Below are positions 1 through 9,284 of a DNA stretch of 64,000 nt, one piece after another (the first letter of the stretch is position 1; every line of letters starts with the position of its first letter). The DNA is from Vibrio agarivorans (GTDB lineage Bacteria > Pseudomonadota > Gammaproteobacteria > Enterobacterales > Vibrionaceae): assembly GCF_030409635.1 (NCBI RefSeq), contig NZ_JAUFQF010000001.1, forward strand, positions 1 through 64,000. The letters run 5' to 3'. A program made the translations under genes and the position numbers. The notes beneath the pieces are model-generated. The model saw only the letters and a list, made by a program, of their open reading frames with translations. It did no database searches and was not told the origin of the DNA.

Positions 1-23
1 TTAAAGGGTGTATATTGTGTATT

Positions 24-47
24 AAGGCAGAGAAATCTGCCTTTTTA
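24..47 (+). terminator. Rho-independent terminator at left edge
   Basis: A 7-bp stem (AAGGCAG at 24-30, CTGCCTT at 37-43) with a 6-base loop is followed by a short T-rich stretch. It would end a plus-strand transcript entering from the left of the window and insulates the recombinase operon that begins at 113. Confidence 0.7.
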
Positions 48-70
48 TTGCACAACTAATTATATGGGTA

Positions 71-97
71 TATAGTAAATATTGTGTACACTGTGTA
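71..97. other. Candidate left end of the mobile island / operator region
   Basis: This AT-rich leader sits just before the first recombinase gene. ATATTGTGTA occurs at 79-88 and also at 12-21. GTGTACAC (84-91) is a short palindrome and TGTGTA recurs at 92-97. Aligned directly with 8827-8846 at the right end of the island, 71-90 matches at 15 of 20 positions, sharing TGTGTAC. It may be a recombination end, an operator for the operon, or both. AT richness makes part of the match expected by chance. Confidence 0.35.
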
Positions 98-112
98 TAA
101 GGAAAGCATAGC

Positions 113-1570
113 TTGTCATCAGTAAAAGTCAGAGCGACGATTGTAGAGGACAATACGGGCATCAAAAGCCAACTGCCTATCTTGCTAACTGAGCAAGGCG
201 AGTTGAGCACGGTGACAGATTACCTACTCAAATTAGAAGCTGACGGAGTGAGCAATTCAGTGATGAATGGCTTTCTTCAAGCGGTATCTTTGTTGTTGGA
301 TTATATGGAAGCAAATAGAGGGTTGTTCGACGATCCGAAGTTACTCTTCCAGACCTTCTCTAAACGTTTATATACAGGAACCATTGGTGAGGATGGGATT
401 GACCCCTCTGGTTTATATTGGGTGCCAAGTTCAACCAGTAACGTGAATAAGCATATTCATCGACTGACGGCATTTACCGACTGGTTGGCAGAAAAGCAAG
501 GTACTGCGTCCATGAACCCCTTGCGTGATGCTACCCCGCATGAGCAGCGATTGAATTACGCTGCATGGTATCGCAAAAACCAAAATGATTTCCTTGGTCA
601 TATCGAAGATAAGACTGTGAACAAAACCATCCGTAAGGCGCGAACCATTAAAGGACGCACGCCGCTCACCAAAACCGAAGATGACGCCATCGCCTTTCCT
701 GAAAAGCATTGGGAAGATTTTTATATAAATGGCATCGGTGGCGCGAGCGACCCACGAGTGGCACTCAGGGACAAGTTAATACTCCTTCTAATGCACGGTG
801 GCGGGTTACGCGAAAGTGAAGCTTTAACGCTTTGGGTGACAGACGTGTTTGAAGATCCCTATGAGCCAGATAGTGCTATCGTTCGAATTTACAACGAAAC
901 AGATGGCAAAGCCCCTGATGGTTGGCGAAGTCGTTCTGGTACACCAAACAGAGAAGCATATCTAAAGGAGCAATATGCTCGCATCCCTCGTCAGCGCATG
1001 AAAGGCACAGCTCATCTTGGTTGGAAGAACCGTGTGGTTGACCACAAAGACAACTACATACAGGTTCAATGGTTTCCAACTGACTATGGCAAAGTGTTTA
1101 TGTCACTTTGGAAAAACTACCAAAAGTACCGAGCCAGCATCGACTGTCATCACCCTTATGCGTTTATTTCGTTTCATCATAGCGCTATCGGCAACCCTTA
1201 CACCATCAACGCCTTCCATGATAACTACGCCAACGGCTTGAAGCGCATTGGTTTAGAGCCGAGCAAGGCAGAAGGCTTAGATCCACATGGGCATCGACAT
1301 AATTACGGCAGACGATTAGAACGTTCAGGATTGAACCCGTTGGTAATTCGACGCTGTATGCACCATAAGTCCCTAGACTCACAAATCCCCTACACAGGCA
1401 AAGGCCAGCAGGAAATCTCTGATGAACTGACCCAAGCGACGTTGCAACTGGCAAACCCTGAATCCAAAGTCAAAGCGCTCGACTGGAAAGCACTCGTTGA
1501 GCATGGGTTTGATGACGTCGACCCGCAGGGCTATTTCACAGGCAAGCATCCTAAATTGAGAGGTAAATAA
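113..1570 (+). CDS. gmtY: Tyrosine recombinase, GmtY-like
   Basis: A 485-residue site-specific tyrosine recombinase that should cut and rejoin DNA for movement of the island. The C-terminal catalytic domain shows the full set of active-site residues: Arg233 (in GGGLRESEA), His392-x-x-Arg395 (HGHR), His417/418 and nucleophile Tyr427. The TTG start at 113 follows AAGGAA at 99-104 with 8-base spacing. The stop overlaps the next start (TAATG at 1567-1571). Length, order and neighbours match the gamma-mobile-trio recombinase GmtY of gammaproteobacterial islands; that name is from memory of the family and not from a search. The recombinase class is certain, the trio name likely. Confidence 0.75.
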   Translation: MSSVKVRATIVEDNTGIKSQLPILLTEQGELSTVTDYLLKLEADGVSNSVMNGFLQAVSLLLDYMEANRGLFDDPKLLFQTFSKRLYTGTIGEDGIDPSGLYWVPSSTSNVNKHIHRLTAFTDWLAEKQGTASMNPLRDATPHEQRLNYAAWYRKNQNDFLGHIEDKTVNKTIRKARTIKGRTPLTKTEDDAIAFPEKHWEDFYINGIGGASDPRVALRDKLILLLMHGGGLRESEALTLWVTDVFEDPYEPDSAIVRIYNETDGKAPDGWRSRSGTPNREAYLKEQYARIPRQRMKGTAHLGWKNRVVDHKDNYIQVQWFPTDYGKVFMSLWKNYQKYRASIDCHHPYAFISFHHSAIGNPYTINAFHDNYANGLKRIGLEPSKAEGLDPHGHRHNYGRRLERSGLNPLVIRRCMHHKSLDSQIPYTGKGQQEISDELTQATLQLANPESKVKALDWKALVEHGFDDVDPQGYFTGKHPKLRGK

Positions 1571-4225
1571 TGGCGAGAAAAAATGACGGACGTTCATCGG
1601 ATTCATCCTTCTCTTGGATGCTCACCACACTTGGTGCTGAGTGGCAACAATGGCAGGAGTTGGCAGCCGAGTGGATGGCCGCACAAACCACATCGATTGA
1701 CACTAAACAATTTGCTTTGGCTCGCTTCTTCGAATCCTATATTAGAGAGCGCGCAAGCTATGCGATAGGCGACATATCATTATTTTTAAGGGACACCGAG
1801 GACACCAATGTTCTAGTGAAGAGCTGGAGACGTTGTTAAGAGAAACACAAAACTCTCCTAAAGTATCCAATCAGGAGTAAACATCTCCTGTGACTTTATT
1901 GACTTTGTTGTCCAAAAGGTGTTTTCTGAAGAGGATGACAATGGCGAGTTAGTGTCATTGGTTGAAAACCCGCTGAGCAAAATCAAACGACAGGAATCAC
2001 TAACAGAAACTGTACGTACCCCCCTGCCGTATCGCTACATTCATAATTTGCGCCAAATCCTCTGTCCGCTACCTGATAAAGACGAACTCACCGTCATTGA
2101 ACAAAACCTCAAGCAAGGTGAAACCCTGCTTCCCACTTATCACTATCGTAATTTCAAACACTGGACATGGGCGCAACAGCAGACAGGTCAACGTCTATCA
2201 GGTAATGATGGCGATTGGTTTGAAGTTGAACCAGAACTGATTGATAAAACCGACCCCGACTGTGTATGGCGTACTATAAAAACAACTCGCAAAGGCAATA
2301 AAATCATCCTTCACCAAATCTGGTCACCCGTCAAAGCGATGGTGGTTTTCATGAAGCTCCATCTGCCACTGCGTACCTATCAGGTGCGGATGCTAGATAG
2401 CGGTGAAGCCGATACGTGGCGCTACGAAAACGCTCAATGGGTACTTAACACTAAAAATGACTTTGCACTTGGCAGTGAAAAGCGCCCATTTAGTAAAGGC
2501 ATATTCCGCCGAATTCACGACACCATGACAGGGCTGTATTCAACAGGCTTGTATATCAATACCAATAAGACCGCCGACCAAAACAAGGACGAACTAGAGC
2601 GTGGTTACATCATTCCGTGGCAAAATAATGAAGTATTGTACTGGATAGAGAAATTACGCAATTGGCAAGAAAAGTACAACCCAATTGATAAACCAACCGA
2701 CTGCACCACATTACTTACCAAGCACACTGATAAGAAAAAATCGAAAGCACAACTGGAAAGTATGGGGGAAATTTCATTTCTATTTAGAGAGGCCTCGGCA
2801 AGGGGGGATGATAGAACTAAACCCATTAGGGACGATGCGCTAGACTCTTTCTGGTATCAACTCCTCTTCGCTCTAGAAAATCAATTGGCTGAACATGGTG
2901 ATAGTCTCGATGGCGGGGGAAGATTGAGGTTAGTTTCCGAGTATCCAGAGGATATACCTAAGTCGCGACGTTACAAAACTAGCTTTCCATTGCACAGCTT
3001 GCGAGTCTCACTCATCACTGCCTATACGATGGACACCCAACTGCCATTACCTGTAATCTCTAAACTATTAGCAGGGCATACGCGTCTATTGATGACCATC
3101 TACTACAACAAGATTACCCCATCAGTAATGGCTGAAAAAATGGATGAAGCGCATGGAGAGCTAGACGCAAAATCCAAACAATCGGTGCGCAACTTCCTTA
3201 AAGATGCCTCATTGGAGCAAATTCAATGCAAGATGGTGTATCACAACGATGACAGCATTCAGGCGGCACTGGTTAATCGTAATCCGGTTGGCTGGGAAGA
3301 ACGCTCGTGCGGTATGTGTCTGGTAGGCGGTAACACCGTGAAATCGGATGAAGTCAGTACCCTTGGTGGTTGCTGGAACGGTGGTAAGTTGATTAATGAT
3401 GTAAAAGCTGCTACCCACCGCATTTACGGCAGTGTGCCTCACGGCCCTGAAAACTGTATTCGCTGCCGCTGGTTTATTACCGAAGCTCGATACCTGCCTG
3501 CGCTCAATGCCCACTTCAACCAACTGAGCTACAAAGCACATCAGGCTGCGAACCTATCTGTGGAAATTGAAGGTGAGCTGGAAGCCCTAAAAGACGAGCA
3601 GTTCTTTTGTGAAGAGCAAGGCAAACCGTTTACCAAGCACTATGAGCTGCAAGCCCTACAGCGCCGCTATGAAAAGCAGCAAGTTGAAGCCGATGAATAC
3701 GCCAAAGACTGGATTGCGTGCTTTGAACTTATTCAGAAAATCATTCGTGTTGAAGAGACCAGAAATGAAGATGACAGCAAAGATAAACTGATTGCGGTTG
3801 GCTATGAGCAAGATGTCAGCCATGCCTTAAAGTTTATCGAAACCGACTCTGAGTTACTGCATCTATCACTGCTTTGTGATGATGCAGAATTCTTTCCTGA
3901 TTTACAGGACGAACTGCGTAAAACCCCTGCTATTCAAAAGCGCTCGATGCAACTCAGTCGTGTGCTAATGAAAAAAGGCTTCGAGCCGATTTTCATGGAA
4001 ATGGACGACAAACAACAACTCATAGCCGCCAATGCCATGCTGCGCCAAATGGCGAAAATTGCTGACCCTGACGATAAGCTCGAAGGCTACCGCAAGGTGG
4101 CGAACCACATCGAAGCGGAAGAATACCTGACCGATAACAAGCTGCTCTCTCAGGGTATTCATGCACTGACTAATAAAGCCATTAATCTAGATGGCATAGC
4201 ACTACCGAACTTATTGGAGGACTAA
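1570..4225 (+). pseudogene. gmtZ: Second tyrosine recombinase, GmtZ-like, frameshifted
   Basis: The gene begins at ATG 1570, overlapping the previous stop, but the frame closes at TAA 1837-1839 after 89 codons. Coding potential continues in the second overlapping frame (residues reading SSEELETLLRETQ, closing at TAA 1878-1880). It then continues in a third frame, open from 1862, which runs 768 codons from GTG 1919. Two successive -1 shifts would rebuild one protein of roughly 870-885 residues. The 768-residue part keeps a tyrosine-recombinase core: His359-x-x-Arg362 (HSLR), His387 (GHTR) and Tyr395/Tyr396. A large C-terminal extension follows. It overlaps the next gene by TAATG. It is either a damaged gene, a sequencing error at two sites, or translated from GTG 1919 only. 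Confidence 0.7.
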
Positions 4226-4902
4226 TGGAACTCGATATTGATGTTATTTTGGCTGACTTAAAAGAAGGCAAAGTGCCTCGCACGCAGCAAAACCTCGATA
4301 AGCTCAATGACACGCTGAAAGCCTATGCAGAATCAGGTCAGCGTGATTTCTCCATCACGCAAATTGGTCGGGTGTCTGCTGAAAATGGCGGATTGGCGTA
4401 TGAAGCTTTGCGTGCTACCCGTAATAAGCACTACCGAACACTCATCGAAGCGTGGGCGGCAAAGTGCAATACCAGTACCAAAAAGCCGCTATCCAACACC
4501 TCACGGTCTAAATCCATCCCTGCGGATAATAAGCTGTTAGAGCGCATCCCAGACCCTGCGGTACGCGCCTTGTTTGGTCAAATCATTGCCGAGCGTAACC
4601 GCTACCGCAAAGAGGTCAATTTGCTCAAGCAACACGCCAATATCACTATCGACAAGCGCCCTGTGCGCCAGTTTGATACCACCGCAGAGCCAAGCGTCGA
4701 AGTGCTGCCATCCCTATCAGGCGTACTCACCGAATCAGAGAAAAAAGCCTTAGCGTATGTCATTTCTGATGAATGCATGGAAAAGAACGACTGGCAAACT
4801 ACTCAGGCGGGTCAAGTAAAAGACATGGAATACAACAGCGAAGTATTCCCTAGAGGCTTTGTCACAGGGCTTCGCAAGCTATTGGGTGAGGTAGATGACT
4901 AA
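4225..4902 (+). CDS. gmtX: GmtX-like mobile-trio protein
   Basis: A 225-residue protein of unknown activity, the third member of the recombinase operon. It has no enzyme motif I recognise. It is mainly helical and charged: residues 1-85 read like a compact DNA-binding or adaptor domain, there is a basic, Ser/Thr-rich linker around 80-100, then a helical segment (ALFGQIIAERNRYRKEVNLL) that could be a coiled coil. Position fits the small accessory protein of dual-recombinase elements, comparable in place to TnpC of Tn554, and GmtX of the gamma-mobile-trio. Start and stop are both TAATG overlaps with the neighbours, so translation is coupled. The gene is certain, the name rests on context. Confidence 0.55.
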   Translation: MELDIDVILADLKEGKVPRTQQNLDKLNDTLKAYAESGQRDFSITQIGRVSAENGGLAYEALRATRNKHYRTLIEAWAAKCNTSTKKPLSNTSRSKSIPADNKLLERIPDPAVRALFGQIIAERNRYRKEVNLLKQHANITIDKRPVRQFDTTAEPSVEVLPSLSGVLTESEKKALAYVISDECMEKNDWQTTQAGQVKDMEYNSEVFPRGFVTGLRKLLGEVDD

Positions 4903-5339
4903 TGGCAAGTGGGCAGCAAAAAGCACAGCAAAACCTTGAGGCATTTGAGGTCTGGAAAGCCACACAGACGGACGATGACTTTAAACAAATCGTGTTCAGA
5001 GGTCAGCTTAACCGTATTGAAGTGGCAAAGGGTATTGGTTGTGGCAAATCGGCGTTAAACCAAAATCCTGCCCTCAAGAAAGCACTCAAAGCCTTAGAAG
5101 ATGAGCTGCGCAGTAAAGGTGTCCTGCCACCGTTGACCGCCGCTGCCAAGAAGAATGAGGGCAAACCTCAAGCCTACGACAACACAGCAAATCGAAAGCT
5201 GCTCGATTCAAAGCGGGTGTCATCATTAGAGGCTGAAAACATCGAGTTGAAAGCCAAGGTCAAGGAGCTTGAAAAGCGACTTGAGCGCTTTGGTGAGCTA
5301 TCTGAAACCTTATCCGAAATGGGGTTGATGCCACGATGA
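4902..5339 (+). CDS. Small coiled-coil accessory protein of the island
   Basis: A 145-residue soluble protein. Residues 20-75 look like a helix-turn-helix-like block (the segment around IEVAKGIGCGKSALNQNPALKKAL). Residues 105-140 are a Leu/Glu/Lys heptad coiled coil (SLEAENIELKAKVKELEKRLE). It starts inside TAATG with the preceding gene and ends in an ATGA overlap with the helicase gene. The layout suggests a DNA-binding, oligomerising helper of the recombinases, similar in size to TnpC-like proteins. No family name recognised. Confidence 0.5.
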   Translation: MASGQQKAQQNLEAFEVWKATQTDDDFKQIVFRGQLNRIEVAKGIGCGKSALNQNPALKKALKALEDELRSKGVLPPLTAAAKKNEGKPQAYDNTANRKLLDSKRVSSLEAENIELKAKVKELEKRLERFGELSETLSEMGLMPR

Positions 5340-7504
5340 ATACCGCTTTGCATGAAGACCAAATGCGTGTCACCAGTATCCCTTATCACTCGACCAAGAT
5401 GGTGATATTCAGCGGTGTACCGCTGGCGAAAGACTCTTACAAAACCAATAGTGGGAAGTATTACGTCACCATCAAAGCCGACCCCGATAGCATCCCTGTA
5501 CTTCCAACGCTGGGTCAGCATTGGTCAGTCAGAGGTGCTCGACAGATAGAAAATATGGAGATGGGTGATTATGTAATGCAGCAGCACACGTATGAATCAC
5601 CCAAGCATATTGAATGCACTTTACCCGAAACAGGTGAGCAACTGATACGATTTATCGCCAGAGAAAGTGACTTCAAGGGTATTGGCGAAAGCAAAGCTAG
5701 AGCGCTCTGGCAGCTCTTGGGTAAAGACTTCCATGCCACACTGAGAAATGACACCCCAGAGTCCAGAAAGCGTCTGACATCGATTTTGAGTGAAGATTCA
5801 GTGGAAGCGCTCTTTAAGGGGTACGCCAAATATAAAAATCTGGCTCATTGCAACTGGATGAGCGAGTACAACATCCCTGCCAGTGTGCAGCAACGACTAC
5901 TCAAGCATCACGGTGAAGCCTCCATCGATGTTATCAAGGATAATCCTTATGCTTTAATGGGCTTTGGTCTTTCGTTCAGTGCCATTGAAGACATTATCAA
6001 GTTAACGGATTTTAAGAGCGATGTTGCGAAGGATGACCCAAGAAGGCTCAGCGCTGCTCTGGAAATGGCGATTCGCAAGGAGATTGAAAAAGGTCACACC
6101 TATACCACTCATGCCAATGTGCGCCCTTACCTCAACAAGCTATTAAGAGACAAAACACTGGTCACTCAGGCGTTCAAATCAGGTCATGATAAAGCTCAGT
6201 ATGTTTTAAATCCCGACACAGGAGCCTACCATCCAACAGCGCAACTTCTGATGGAAAGTGTTGTTGCCAAGCGCTTAAAAACACTGATTAAGCGAAATAA
6301 CTTGTTTGATGAAAACGCCAATGCTGCGTATTGCTCTGCGGCTGCGGAGCTTCCCTACGAATTAACCCCTAAACAAATCGAAGCCGTCACAACGTGTCTG
6401 GATAATTCGGTAAGCTGCATTACGGGTGGTGCAGGAACAGGCAAAACAACGGTACTCAGGACGGCTCTCAGGACATATCATCAACTTGGATTTGAAATAC
6501 ACGCCGTTGCGCTCAGCGGTCGTGCTGCAATGAGACTTCATGAGTCCATCGGTTTTGTTACCTCAACCATTGCCAAATTGCTGCGTGAAGAACCTATTGA
6601 ACCCAGTGTCGAGAAAACAAATCATCTATTAGTGATTGATGAAGCGAGCATGATTGACCTGCCAACTATGTATCGCCTAGTAAATCACATTCACCCCTCT
6701 GTACGATTGATATTCAGTGGCGACCCTGACCAACTCCCACCAATAGGTTGTGGCAAGGTATTGGAAGACATCGTTGAAGCAAAAACGGTGGCGAATACGA
6801 TGCTGGATATCGTCAAACGGCAAGAAGGTTCAACGGGTATCCCCGAATACTCAAAACTCATCAATCAAGGAGTGATGCCTGAACAATTAAGCTCAGGTGC
6901 AATACACTTTCACGAAACCAGTAAAACAGACATTGCCAAAGTCTGTTGCGAGCTTTATCAAGAGTTCCCTGATAGCAGTCGTGTCATGGCTCCAACCAAG
7001 GCACTCGTATCAGAAATCAATAAGCTCACCCAGCAAGCCGTTAACCCAGATAGCGCCAGCCTTGAGTTCGAAATCAATGGTAACAAGTTCTTTCTGCCAC
7101 TTAGCCTCAATGATGCGGTGTTATTCACGCAGAATCATTACGATAAAGGCATTCAGAACGGCTCACTTGGCACACTAACCAGTACCAAACCTTCTGGTGA
7201 CAGTTATGGTGAAGTGACGCTAGATACAGGTGAAAAGGTCGAGATAACACAATCCGTTCTCGACTGCATGGAGTTGGGTTACGCAATCACTCTACATAAA
7301 GCTCAAGGATCACAGTTTCCACGCATCATCATCGCTCTGCAAAACGGAAGAATAGTGGATAGAGCATGGTTCTATACGGCAATCACTAGAGCGGAAAGTG
7401 AAATCCATATCGTTGGTAGTAGTGATGACATGAAGCAGATCACCAAGGCACCTAGTCACTCTCATAAGCGGAATAGCTACCTGAAAGAACTATTACAATG
7501 CTGA
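5336..7504 (+). CDS. RecD2-like superfamily 1 DNA helicase
   Basis: A 722-residue protein of the RecD/RecD2 (SF1B) helicase type. The N-terminal third has the helix-hairpin-helix style region typical of RecD2 (around FKGIGESKARALWQLL). Motor motifs follow in order: Walker A GGAGTGKTT (residues 364-372), Walker B LLVIDEAS, motif III SGDPDQLPP, and the C-terminal ITLHKAQGSQFP and TAITRA motifs. It should unwind DNA 5' to 3' with ATP. Coupled by ATGA to the gene before it, it belongs to the recombinase operon and probably processes island DNA during movement or repair. It is not the chromosomal RecD of RecBCD. Confidence 0.8.
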   Translation: MNTALHEDQMRVTSIPYHSTKMVIFSGVPLAKDSYKTNSGKYYVTIKADPDSIPVLPTLGQHWSVRGARQIENMEMGDYVMQQHTYESPKHIECTLPETGEQLIRFIARESDFKGIGESKARALWQLLGKDFHATLRNDTPESRKRLTSILSEDSVEALFKGYAKYKNLAHCNWMSEYNIPASVQQRLLKHHGEASIDVIKDNPYALMGFGLSFSAIEDIIKLTDFKSDVAKDDPRRLSAALEMAIRKEIEKGHTYTTHANVRPYLNKLLRDKTLVTQAFKSGHDKAQYVLNPDTGAYHPTAQLLMESVVAKRLKTLIKRNNLFDENANAAYCSAAAELPYELTPKQIEAVTTCLDNSVSCITGGAGTGKTTVLRTALRTYHQLGFEIHAVALSGRAAMRLHESIGFVTSTIAKLLREEPIEPSVEKTNHLLVIDEASMIDLPTMYRLVNHIHPSVRLIFSGDPDQLPPIGCGKVLEDIVEAKTVANTMLDIVKRQEGSTGIPEYSKLINQGVMPEQLSSGAIHFHETSKTDIAKVCCELYQEFPDSSRVMAPTKALVSEINKLTQQAVNPDSASLEFEINGNKFFLPLSLNDAVLFTQNHYDKGIQNGSLGTLTSTKPSGDSYGEVTLDTGEKVEITQSVLDCMELGYAITLHKAQGSQFPRIIIALQNGRIVDRAWFYTAITRAESEIHIVGSSDDMKQITKAPSHSHKRNSYLKELLQC

Positions 7505-7586
7505 AGTTTTATTGTGCAGACTTGCGTTTACTGCAATTCTGGTCTTGTACATAATGGCTTAATATTTAGGGGAACTAAAGTTATCA

Positions 7587-8240
7587 ATGGAAAAATTAGA
7601 CGGATTGAGCAAGTACAAGTTTGAGAAAATAGCGGTAGAGTCTTTACACAATGCTCTCAGACTCTTAAATGACTCAATATTACTATTCGAACATGGTTCA
7701 TATCCATCCAGTTTTCAGTTAGCGGTACTTTCACTGGAAGAGTTTTCAAAAGCTAGTTGGGTTGAACACTATTATTACACAGCACTAACGAATGAAGGGT
7801 TCATGCCTGAAGACATTGAACAACAGTGGTTAAAGTTACTTTTCAATCACCCCAAAAAGCAAACTCATTTTATAAGTCGTGATTTATTTGAGTTTTCACC
7901 GAAGTTTGTAAAGAAGATTGAAGAGAAAGAGATTGAAGTAAAGAAGCAAAAGGCAACTTACGTTGGCTTAAGCAGGATTAAAGGTAAAGTCGATGTTGAT
8001 AGCAGAGTGTCTATACCTATAAAAGTGACCTCTGAGAATGATGCAAAGCAATTTATTTCACTTATGGTTGGTGAGTTTAGGGATATAAATGAGAAAATTG
8101 CTCTAAATGACATGTATTGGGATATTCCTGATATGGATTTGATAACGCAAGGCCCCTTGTTCGATAGAGTTTTGGCATGGCCGTTTGAGAGTGGCTTGAA
8201 GGGTAAGCGTTGGTATGAGGAGTGGAAGAAGAAATTGTGA
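7587..8240 (+). CDS. AbiV-like HEPN abortive-infection protein
   Basis: A 217-residue protein whose first 110 residues read as the AbiV HEPN family: an N-terminal helical pair with NALRLLNDS, a small-residue helix and the LEEFSKA signature (Glu51, Glu52, Lys55), then HPKKQTHF near 88-95 and KQKATYVGL near 121-129. In lactococci AbiV blocks phage translation after infection. I see no canonical R-x4-6-H RNase motif. The gene starts 82 bases after the helicase, with AGGGGAA upstream, and is AT-richer than the recombinase genes, as expected for cargo. It ends in a GTGA overlap with the next gene, so the two are probably one defence unit. Confidence 0.7.
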   Translation: MEKLDGLSKYKFEKIAVESLHNALRLLNDSILLFEHGSYPSSFQLAVLSLEEFSKASWVEHYYYTALTNEGFMPEDIEQQWLKLLFNHPKKQTHFISRDLFEFSPKFVKKIEEKEIEVKKQKATYVGLSRIKGKVDVDSRVSIPIKVTSENDAKQFISLMVGEFRDINEKIALNDMYWDIPDMDLITQGPLFDRVLAWPFESGLKGKRWYEEWKKKL

Positions 8241-8767
8241 TTGAGTCTCGTTACTGGAAGGAAGACTTAGCTGCTTATGCCAGAAGGTTTAAACCCGTTT
8301 CTAAACCGCTAAGATATACCGAGAAGCGGCAAGTCAACTTCGAAAAAGATGTAATTATATCGTTATTTATGGTTCGAAAGCTTACTGAAGCAAATAAGCT
8401 TTCCTCGCGCACAACGAGTAAACAATTTAATGTCTACGGTTCTAAATGTATCAAACCTGTCAATAGCTTGAACTTCTGGGACATTGATGAACTGTATGAC
8501 CTATCTAAAGAAGATAAGCTTACAAAGACAGTCCAGTTTATTGCAAACCAATTAGTACATGGCAGTGCTTTGTATGCCTACAGAGATAAAGATCGCAACT
8601 GGGGAGGCGTCTATACTTGCTCTGATTTTGAGCGCCATAAATATGTATATAAAATCCCAGTTACTACCATTATCGAAATACTTGAAATTGCATCTGAAGA
8701 TTACCCTACTGAGATTCATTATGATTACAACGAGGGGAAAGGTGACTATTCAGTCACCACAGATTAA
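8237..8767 (+). CDS. Unrecognised partner of the AbiV-like protein
   Basis: A 176-residue hypothetical protein. I prefer GTG 8237, which overlaps the preceding stop as GTGA and has GAAGAAG upstream, over GTG 8222. The N-terminus is basic (RYWKEDLAAYARRFK). Residues about 35-60 form a helix rich in hydrophobics (VIISLFMVRKLTEANK). IANQLVHGS near residue 105 recalls the N-x3-H half of HEPN motifs but lacks the Arg. There is no signal peptide or membrane span. Co-translation with the AbiV-like gene suggests a partner, sensor or antidote. I cannot assign a family. Confidence 0.6.
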   Translation: MIESRYWKEDLAAYARRFKPVSKPLRYTEKRQVNFEKDVIISLFMVRKLTEANKLSSRTTSKQFNVYGSKCIKPVNSLNFWDIDELYDLSKEDKLTKTVQFIANQLVHGSALYAYRDKDRNWGGVYTCSDFERHKYVYKIPVTTIIEILEIASEDYPTEIHYDYNEGKGDYSVTTD

Positions 8768-8817
8768 TAGAAAGTGTGAAATGTTATCGGCTCTTTAATC
8801 CTTGAGGGATTGAAGTG

Positions 8818-8846
8818 CGTACACACTATTATACATAGTGTGTACG
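8818..8846. repeat. Perfect 12-bp inverted repeat, probable right end of the island
   Basis: CGTACACACTAT (8818-8829), a 5-base spacer TATAC, and ATAGTGTGTACG (8835-8846) form a perfect palindrome; taken as 11-bp arms the spacer is 7 bases. This is the usual geometry of a tyrosine-recombinase core site. It lies exactly between the last cargo gene and the truncated chromosomal gene. A factor-independent terminator is less likely because no T-run follows. Confidence 0.5.
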
Positions 8847-9284
8847 TTTGTCACCTATGGGAAGAGCATTGTCAGTAATGGTCTTCCACTCACTCACTCG
8901 CAAATAGACACGATTTTTACTGTATACTCCATTTCGTTGGGGGATTTAACTAAAGAGCAAGAGGTACTTATCCAGCTTTGGACGAGTGAAATGGAAATTA
9001 CGGTCAATGATTGGGTGAGCTATCAAACTCAAGTTCGCTTACAGATCAAAGAGATGCTTGCACAGCGAGCAGATACTGTTACTCTGGAACGCAAACTAAA
9101 CAGTGTGTTAACTGACCCTGAGCGCTTTTACAGTAGCGAGTTGAATCGTAAGCTTGAGCATAATCGGCAGGTGATGGACCTCTATTTTGTCCAGCTGGTG
9201 AATATTGCGACAGACAAGCAGGCCCATCACTATCGAGAGACTCTTGAGGACTGGAAAGAAGTGGCTCTTGATATCATGCAGTAG
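8838..9284 (+). pseudogene. 3' remnant of a DUF6279-like lipoprotein gene
   Basis: A 148-codon frame, open back to 8814, with no signal peptide or lipobox. From about residue 20 it resembles the C-terminal half of DUF6279 family lipoproteins: a helical region with DLTKEQEVLIQLW, then PERFYSSELNRKLEHNRQV and a final helical pair. The normal gene is about twice as long and begins with a lipoprotein signal. The missing 5' part and the palindrome at 8818-8846 indicate disruption by the island, with the junction between 8846 and about 8905. A start at GTG 8838 is inside the palindrome and unlikely to be native. Confidence 0.6.

Follow-up and report, generated by a model that had tools for sequence, protein, structure and literature searches.

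HEPN-MNT toxin-antitoxin modules (HepT-MntA) consist of a HEPN gene and a small neighbouring gene, and a similar arrangement is seen in the gene pair described here, which lies in a 64,000-nucleotide stretch of Vibrio agarivorans DNA (the window). The closest known system to the first gene of the pair is the AbiV protein of L. lactis (PF18728, TIGR04498; PDB 9bj5, 9bj6 and 9bj7), for which RNase activity, a block of translation and a phage-protein trigger are reported (PMC3231927 and a PDB title); the title of 9bj6 names AbiV an RNase and speaks of a two-component system. AbiV proteins lack the histidine of the R-x4-6-H motif, but on its N-terminal side another His is conserved (PMC3710099). 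The islands of the gamma-mobile-trio (GMT) type, in turn, are described in PMC12039261 as mobile armouries that carry both T6SS toxins and antiphage systems.

By both profile and fold, gene 1 of the pair is a member of the AbiV family. It scores 74.4 bits against PF18728 (HEPN_AbiV; Pfam cut-off 27.1) and 65.1 bits against TIGR04498 (NCBIfam cut-off 27), and fold comparison gives an all-helical HEPN protein that resembles solved AbiV, with 14% identity to 9bj6 in the alignment. The original prediction, which had recognised an AbiV HEPN signature without an obvious R-x4-6-H motif, was right on both counts: a motif search found R-x4-6-H in neither gene 1 nor the partner protein. Its H61 and H88 are invariant among 52 aligned sequences. 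By analogy with L. lactis AbiV, gene 1 likely has RNase activity and arrests translation. Unlike L. lactis AbiV, gene 1 is overlapped by a partner gene, whose product may or may not resemble the second component of the L. lactis system.

This overlap is the predicted four-base GTGA, made up of the TGA stop of gene 1 (8238-8240) and a GTG of gene 2 (8237-8239). Since close partner homologues mostly start with M-I-E-S, which matches that GTG, the true start of gene 2 is probably at 8237, and the ORF-listed start at 8222 probably too early. As anticipated, the two genes are AT-richer than their surroundings, with a G+C content of 37.2% and 38.2% compared with 46.5% in the recombinase operon and 45.9% at 9300-30000. 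Promoter-like sites in 7400-9000 are not more frequent than expected by chance (four found, shuffle mean 4.6), and the hexamers upstream of the pair are weak.

The pair is the cargo of a GMT island. NCBIfam models identify the recombinase operon noted in the original prediction as gamma-mobile-trio: gmtX, gmtY and gmtZ are encoded together and, as in described GMT islands, GmtY, GmtZ, GmtX, a VPA1267-family protein and a RecD2-like helicase stand in a row with the cargo behind them (Table 1). In this island one AbiV pair is the only cargo, and the claim that nothing else lies between the recombinase operon with its helicase and the island end holds; the extent had to be corrected, the right end being at 8930 and not at 8767, that is, 163 bases beyond gene 2. 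GmtZ is split in this copy, with the larger frame passing the NF047926 cut-off, and some of the other island copies that we compared have a longer open gmtZ frame. The pair is found five times in the source genome (4.9 Mb, 4 contigs), always at a contig end, and both the AbiV and the partner proteins are identical in all five copies.

The five contig ends (L014, L015, L016, L018 and L019, one of them being window positions 1-8936) break off within ~70 bases of one another, directly before gmtY and near the apparent left end of the element, and the sequence near them contains many small insertions and deletions. At two target sites, the DUF6279 gene and a hairpin terminator, the right end is touched by both host flanks; these double right ends suggest a head-to-head inverted double element of ~17.8 kb, an unassembled middle, or else an assembly fault. 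For a third insertion site (C1R), comparison with C2R gave no match. The six-base core is GGGGGG at one side and at the opposite side consists of six bases that belong to the target itself, an arrangement reminiscent of Tn554-type transposition.

The same slot behind the helicase was read in sister islands. The island helicase is present in 16 of 227 same-genus genomes, the source genome included, and 11 slots were read, from 9 of the 15 other genomes. A PADLOC-type defence gene occupies six of the 11, five detected by the scan and the sixth by protein identity, a count that is a lower bound given that 10 of the 60 slot ORFs, picked by eye, were scanned and L144, L149 and L150 were left out. 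The two Gabija slots belong to two islands of one genome. The PADLOC scan of the L143 and L148 slots gave no match, and none of the 60 sister-slot ORFs matched AbiV or the partner. Note that the same right end was seen in one sister island only (L141, with Ppl inside), and cargo status in the other slots is therefore assumed from position. Because this slot holds defence genes in sister islands, the position of the pair supports a defence role for it, in agreement with the part of the original prediction that saw the pair as candidate anti-phage cargo; the part that saw it as a fixed two-gene system fared differently (see below).

Table 1. Features of the island in the window and defence genes in the corresponding slot of sister islands
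Feature	Position	Strand	Basis or remark
GmtY tyrosine recombinase	113..1570	+	NF040693, 564.3 bits (cut-off 340)
GmtZ integrase, two frames (1570-1839 and 1919-4225)	1570..4225	+	NF047926, 47.6 and 961 bits (cut-off 600)
GmtX	4225..4902	+	NF040692, 253.2 bits (cut-off 40)
VPA1267-family protein	4902..5339	+	NF040697, 200.4 bits (cut-off 90)
RecD2-like island helicase	5336..7504	+	AAA_30, 136.1 bits; TIGR01448, 367.9 bits (below cut-off 500)
Promoter-like hexamers 5' of the pair, weak	7527..7555	+	9/12 match; hexamer scan of 7400-9000
AbiV-family HEPN protein, 217 aa (gene 1)	7587..8240	+	Pfam, NCBIfam, fold
GTGA start/stop overlap of genes 1 and 2	8237..8240	+	Sequence
Partner protein (gene 2)	8237..8767	+	176 aa from conserved start; mechanical ORF from 8222, 181 aa
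Inverted repeat between partner gene and island end	8819..8845	.	Read from sequence
Right end of element (CTGTATACTCC)	8920..8930	.	Common to five contig ends; flanks diverge beyond
6-base core after right end	8931-8936	.	Directly 3' of CTGTATACTCC
Remainder of host DUF6279 gene, split by the insertion	8931..9284	+	Pfam match, flank comparison
Ppl	L141		PADLOC
PDC-S60, partial	L142		PADLOC
Avs2	L145		PADLOC
Gabija	L146		Both proteins identical residue for residue to L147
Gabija	L147		PADLOC
Type I R-M	L151		PADLOC

For the protein family of the partner, the libraries searched hold neither a known relative nor a matching fold, and the expectation that it would be of an unfamiliar kind was thus borne out. 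Pfam, PADLOC, NCBIfam and PHROGs return no hit for the protein, and no PDB sequence matches it; for 37 diverse members of its family, Pfam, PADLOC and NCBIfam gave only isolated hits with E <= 0.1 that disagreed with one another. A first search returned 45 homologous proteins and a diverse profile 230; no Pfam domain is present among the 120 listed of these, and by their record titles the homologues span Pseudomonadota, Bacteroidota, Planctomycetota, Chloroflexota, Bacillota and others. The predicted structure (pLDDT 90.7, pTM 0.85) is alpha/beta with seven strands, and on comparison with a structure library no entry stands out and no PDB entry matches clearly. W7, L11, E36, R47, H108, S129 and D130 are invariant among the 37 members, and the E, R, H, S and D residues of this set would be suitable for catalysis or ligand binding. 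The IANQLVHGS segment, which had been likened to half a HEPN motif, is indeed conserved, with a nearly invariant Q and an invariant H in the consensus F-x-x-N-Q-x-x-H of the 37 members. It is probably not part of a HEPN domain: the confident model is alpha/beta and not an all-helical bundle, and R-x4-6-H is missing from the window protein. In hhalign the partner profile has a probability of 0.1% against that of AbiV, the one HEPN profile compared in this way.

How regularly do the two genes travel together? The AbiV-led sample comprises 12 other contexts of this AbiV subgroup, namely four plasmids (of five records, H8, a partial match, being left out), two genomes among 394 searched with the source genome included, and six viral contigs; L102/L107 and L105/L106 are near-copies. 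The partner is close to AbiV in one of the 12 (L074, one gene between) and directly adjacent in none. The context of the nearest AbiV relative (66% identity, L101) is without the partner, as are all six contexts of other AbiV subgroups (L022, L098, L099, L100, L111 and L112). Seen from the partner's side, AbiV is directly adjacent in one of 38 genome loci (L036, a Saprospiraceae MAG, with an 8-base gap) and one gene off in one of three plasmids (L074, a Halioglobus plasmid). It is missing around all seven partner loci from 227 same-genus and 369 class genomes, and 121 further family genomes yielded no additional partner locus. Some of the 37 genome loci that contain a partner frame have short flanks, with less than 1 kb upstream of the partner in five (L036 included) and less than 1 kb downstream in five, and a few partner neighbours may have been overlooked for this reason. 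The gene between AbiV and the partner in L074 (L074:5121-5927) encodes a 268-aa protein with no Pfam match above cut-off.

When 153 partners are placed in a tree, the three rows linked to AbiV are scattered and require three changes. Well-supported branches force at least two of these, provided that rows whose context is unknown are counted as unlinked. The test concerns three rows, the branch of L074 is very long, and one gain with two losses could also account for the three changes. Between the window and L074, AbiV is 50% identical and the partner 24%. Given the context counts, the scattered tree rows and the unequal identities, the AbiV-partner pairing is rare and facultative, and it seems to have come together on more than one occasion. 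The genes are seldom adjacent in other sampled genomes, the outcome that the original prediction had named as one that would refute it, and the regular co-occurrence of a type II toxin-antitoxin pair was not found. These counts, together with single relatives of either gene between attC-like sites, speak against the fixed two-gene system of the original prediction.

Those single relatives come from integrons. The partner stands alone between two attC-like sites in three of six other same-genus homologues (one site in two, none in one), and an AbiV of another subgroup (L100:856-1521, 147 bits to PF18728) is likewise alone between two such sites. Neither a pure antitoxin nor a constitutive toxin would be expected to travel as a lone cassette, and because the partner is found as a single-gene integron cassette, a simple toxin-antitoxin pair is disfavoured. 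The pair also differs from HEPN-MNT modules: Pfam finds no MNT domain in the partner, no PDB entry clearly matches the partner model, and either gene has relatives that stand by themselves.

Elsewhere, the neighbours of the partner include HepT, Abi_C, Ymh, a RiboL-PSP-like HEPN (sub-threshold), PIN and DUF4411 proteins, Mrr, a Bpu10I-type R-M fusion and two DUF6602 proteins; many others are not recognisable as defence genes, and the phosphomannomutase-like gene upstream in L030 is, by eye, apparently housekeeping. An RNxxxH-type motif occurs in six of 49 adjacent same-strand ORFs compared with two of 338 other ORFs in 41 loci (p = 7e-5), counted as a motif pattern in mechanical ORFs of at least 90 aa and omitting L092-L096, L034 (second contig of one genome) and L061 (no partner frame found); AbiV loci add nothing to this test, AbiV being without the motif. 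One of the two other ORFs is an opposite-strand neighbour in L026. Among the six motif-bearing neighbours, HepT (L043) and Ymh (L058) alone exceed the Pfam cut-off, that in L031 is sub-threshold, and those in L026 and L032 and the downstream one in L097 have the motif only. In L097 the partner also has upstream of it an above-cut-off Abi_C, presumably a HEPN domain. HEPN_Cthe2314 beside the partner in L092 had initially been counted as linkage (7/54 versus 2/374); because the two genes have an attC-like repeat between them, the counts given above were made anew without L092-L096. In place of a fixed pairing, the partner thus shows a wider and facultative association with genes of HEPN type and with PIN and restriction genes.

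In several of these loci the partner is a third gene. It lies 3' of a VapB-like and PIN pair in L029, 3' of an HTH gene and DUF4411 in L052 (both by eye, as is the assignment of DUF4411 as PIN-like), and 3' of HepT in L043, where short upstream frames look, again by eye, like the remnant of an MNT gene. For L043, the idea that the partner had taken the place of the HepT antitoxin was dropped on account of these apparent MNT remains.

The reading that we favour, tentatively and at somewhat less than an even chance, is one of stacked activities. AbiV would most likely be a HEPN RNase that lies dormant until a phage product sets it free and that, if L. lactis AbiV is a guide, would then arrest translation; the partner, co-translated through the overlap, would not be its antitoxin and would instead contribute a second, independent and self-sufficient defence layer. 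We infer that a phage product would be the trigger and that the partner would have a defence role. This reading agrees with the AbiV profile and fold and the RNase named in the 9bj6 title, with the defence genes in sister slots, with the lone cassettes of the partner and of the L100 AbiV, with partners that follow pairs already equipped with an antitoxin-like gene (L029, L052 and L043), and with the ungrouped AbiV-linked partners in the tree. Against it, stacking does not require genes as close as those here (four-base overlap) and in L036 (8-base gap), which would fit a stoichiometric complex, the enrichment beside HEPN-type genes may reflect a direct role with HEPN RNases, the "two-component" of the 9bj6 title may mean that AbiV needs a second protein, the tree test turns on few rows that one gain and two losses could also explain, and anti-phage action of the partner would have to be presumed. 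A wider version strikes us as rather doubtful: the partner, as a new family with a new alpha/beta fold, would be a portable co-effector in immunity that relies on nucleases; it would be installed alike behind AbiV and other HEPN RNases, behind PIN toxins and behind restriction enzymes, and would also be carried as a lone integron cassette. A function for the partner would annotate at least 230 protein clusters and would show whether defence RNases have a common accessory. AbiV is a classical abortive-infection protein, and the island offers a compact natural pair of it with a protein absent from the searched libraries.

The chief rival, possible although on balance unlikely, is that the partner is a dedicated regulator that binds AbiV and either silences it like an antitoxin or licenses it upon infection, so that the two form one two-component system. 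The GTGA overlap, the second tight pair in L036, the AbiV-X-partner order in L074, the title of 9bj6 and partners beside HepT, Abi_C, Ymh and RNxxxH-bearing genes would all be expected of such a regulator; yet the partner is missing from 11 of 12 subgroup contexts, L101 among them, and from those of other subgroups, 37 of 38 partner loci are without an adjacent AbiV, the partner exists as single-gene cassettes, and it follows pairs that seemingly have an antitoxin already. We consider it improbable that the adjacency has no function, the partner being a mobile gene unrelated to AbiV that inserted behind it and is expressed by read-through: the rarity of the pairing, the integron and plasmid homologues and the varied, in part apparently housekeeping, upstream genes (phosphomannomutase-like in L030) fit this, but AbiV lies near the partner in two more, distantly related bacteria (L036 and L074), and ORFs adjacent to the partner are enriched in the RNxxxH motif relative to the remaining ORFs of the partner loci. 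Least probable is an addiction or stress module that retains the island in the genome and has no anti-phage role, as island cargo with relatives of the partner beside toxin-antitoxin-type genes might suggest, given AbiV relatives that have no partner gene of any kind (one a lone cassette), hardly affordable for a constitutive toxin, and known anti-phage systems in sister islands.

Two further AbiV contexts are worth recording. The source genome has a second, different AbiV (L022:8935-9579; C1, near 1,010,000), which adjoins two frames resembling one split gene and not the partner. In two near-identical viral contigs a SEFIR/TIR-domain protein is encoded 3' of the AbiV relative (L105:5858-7294 and L106:5858-7294; the L105 copy was scanned).
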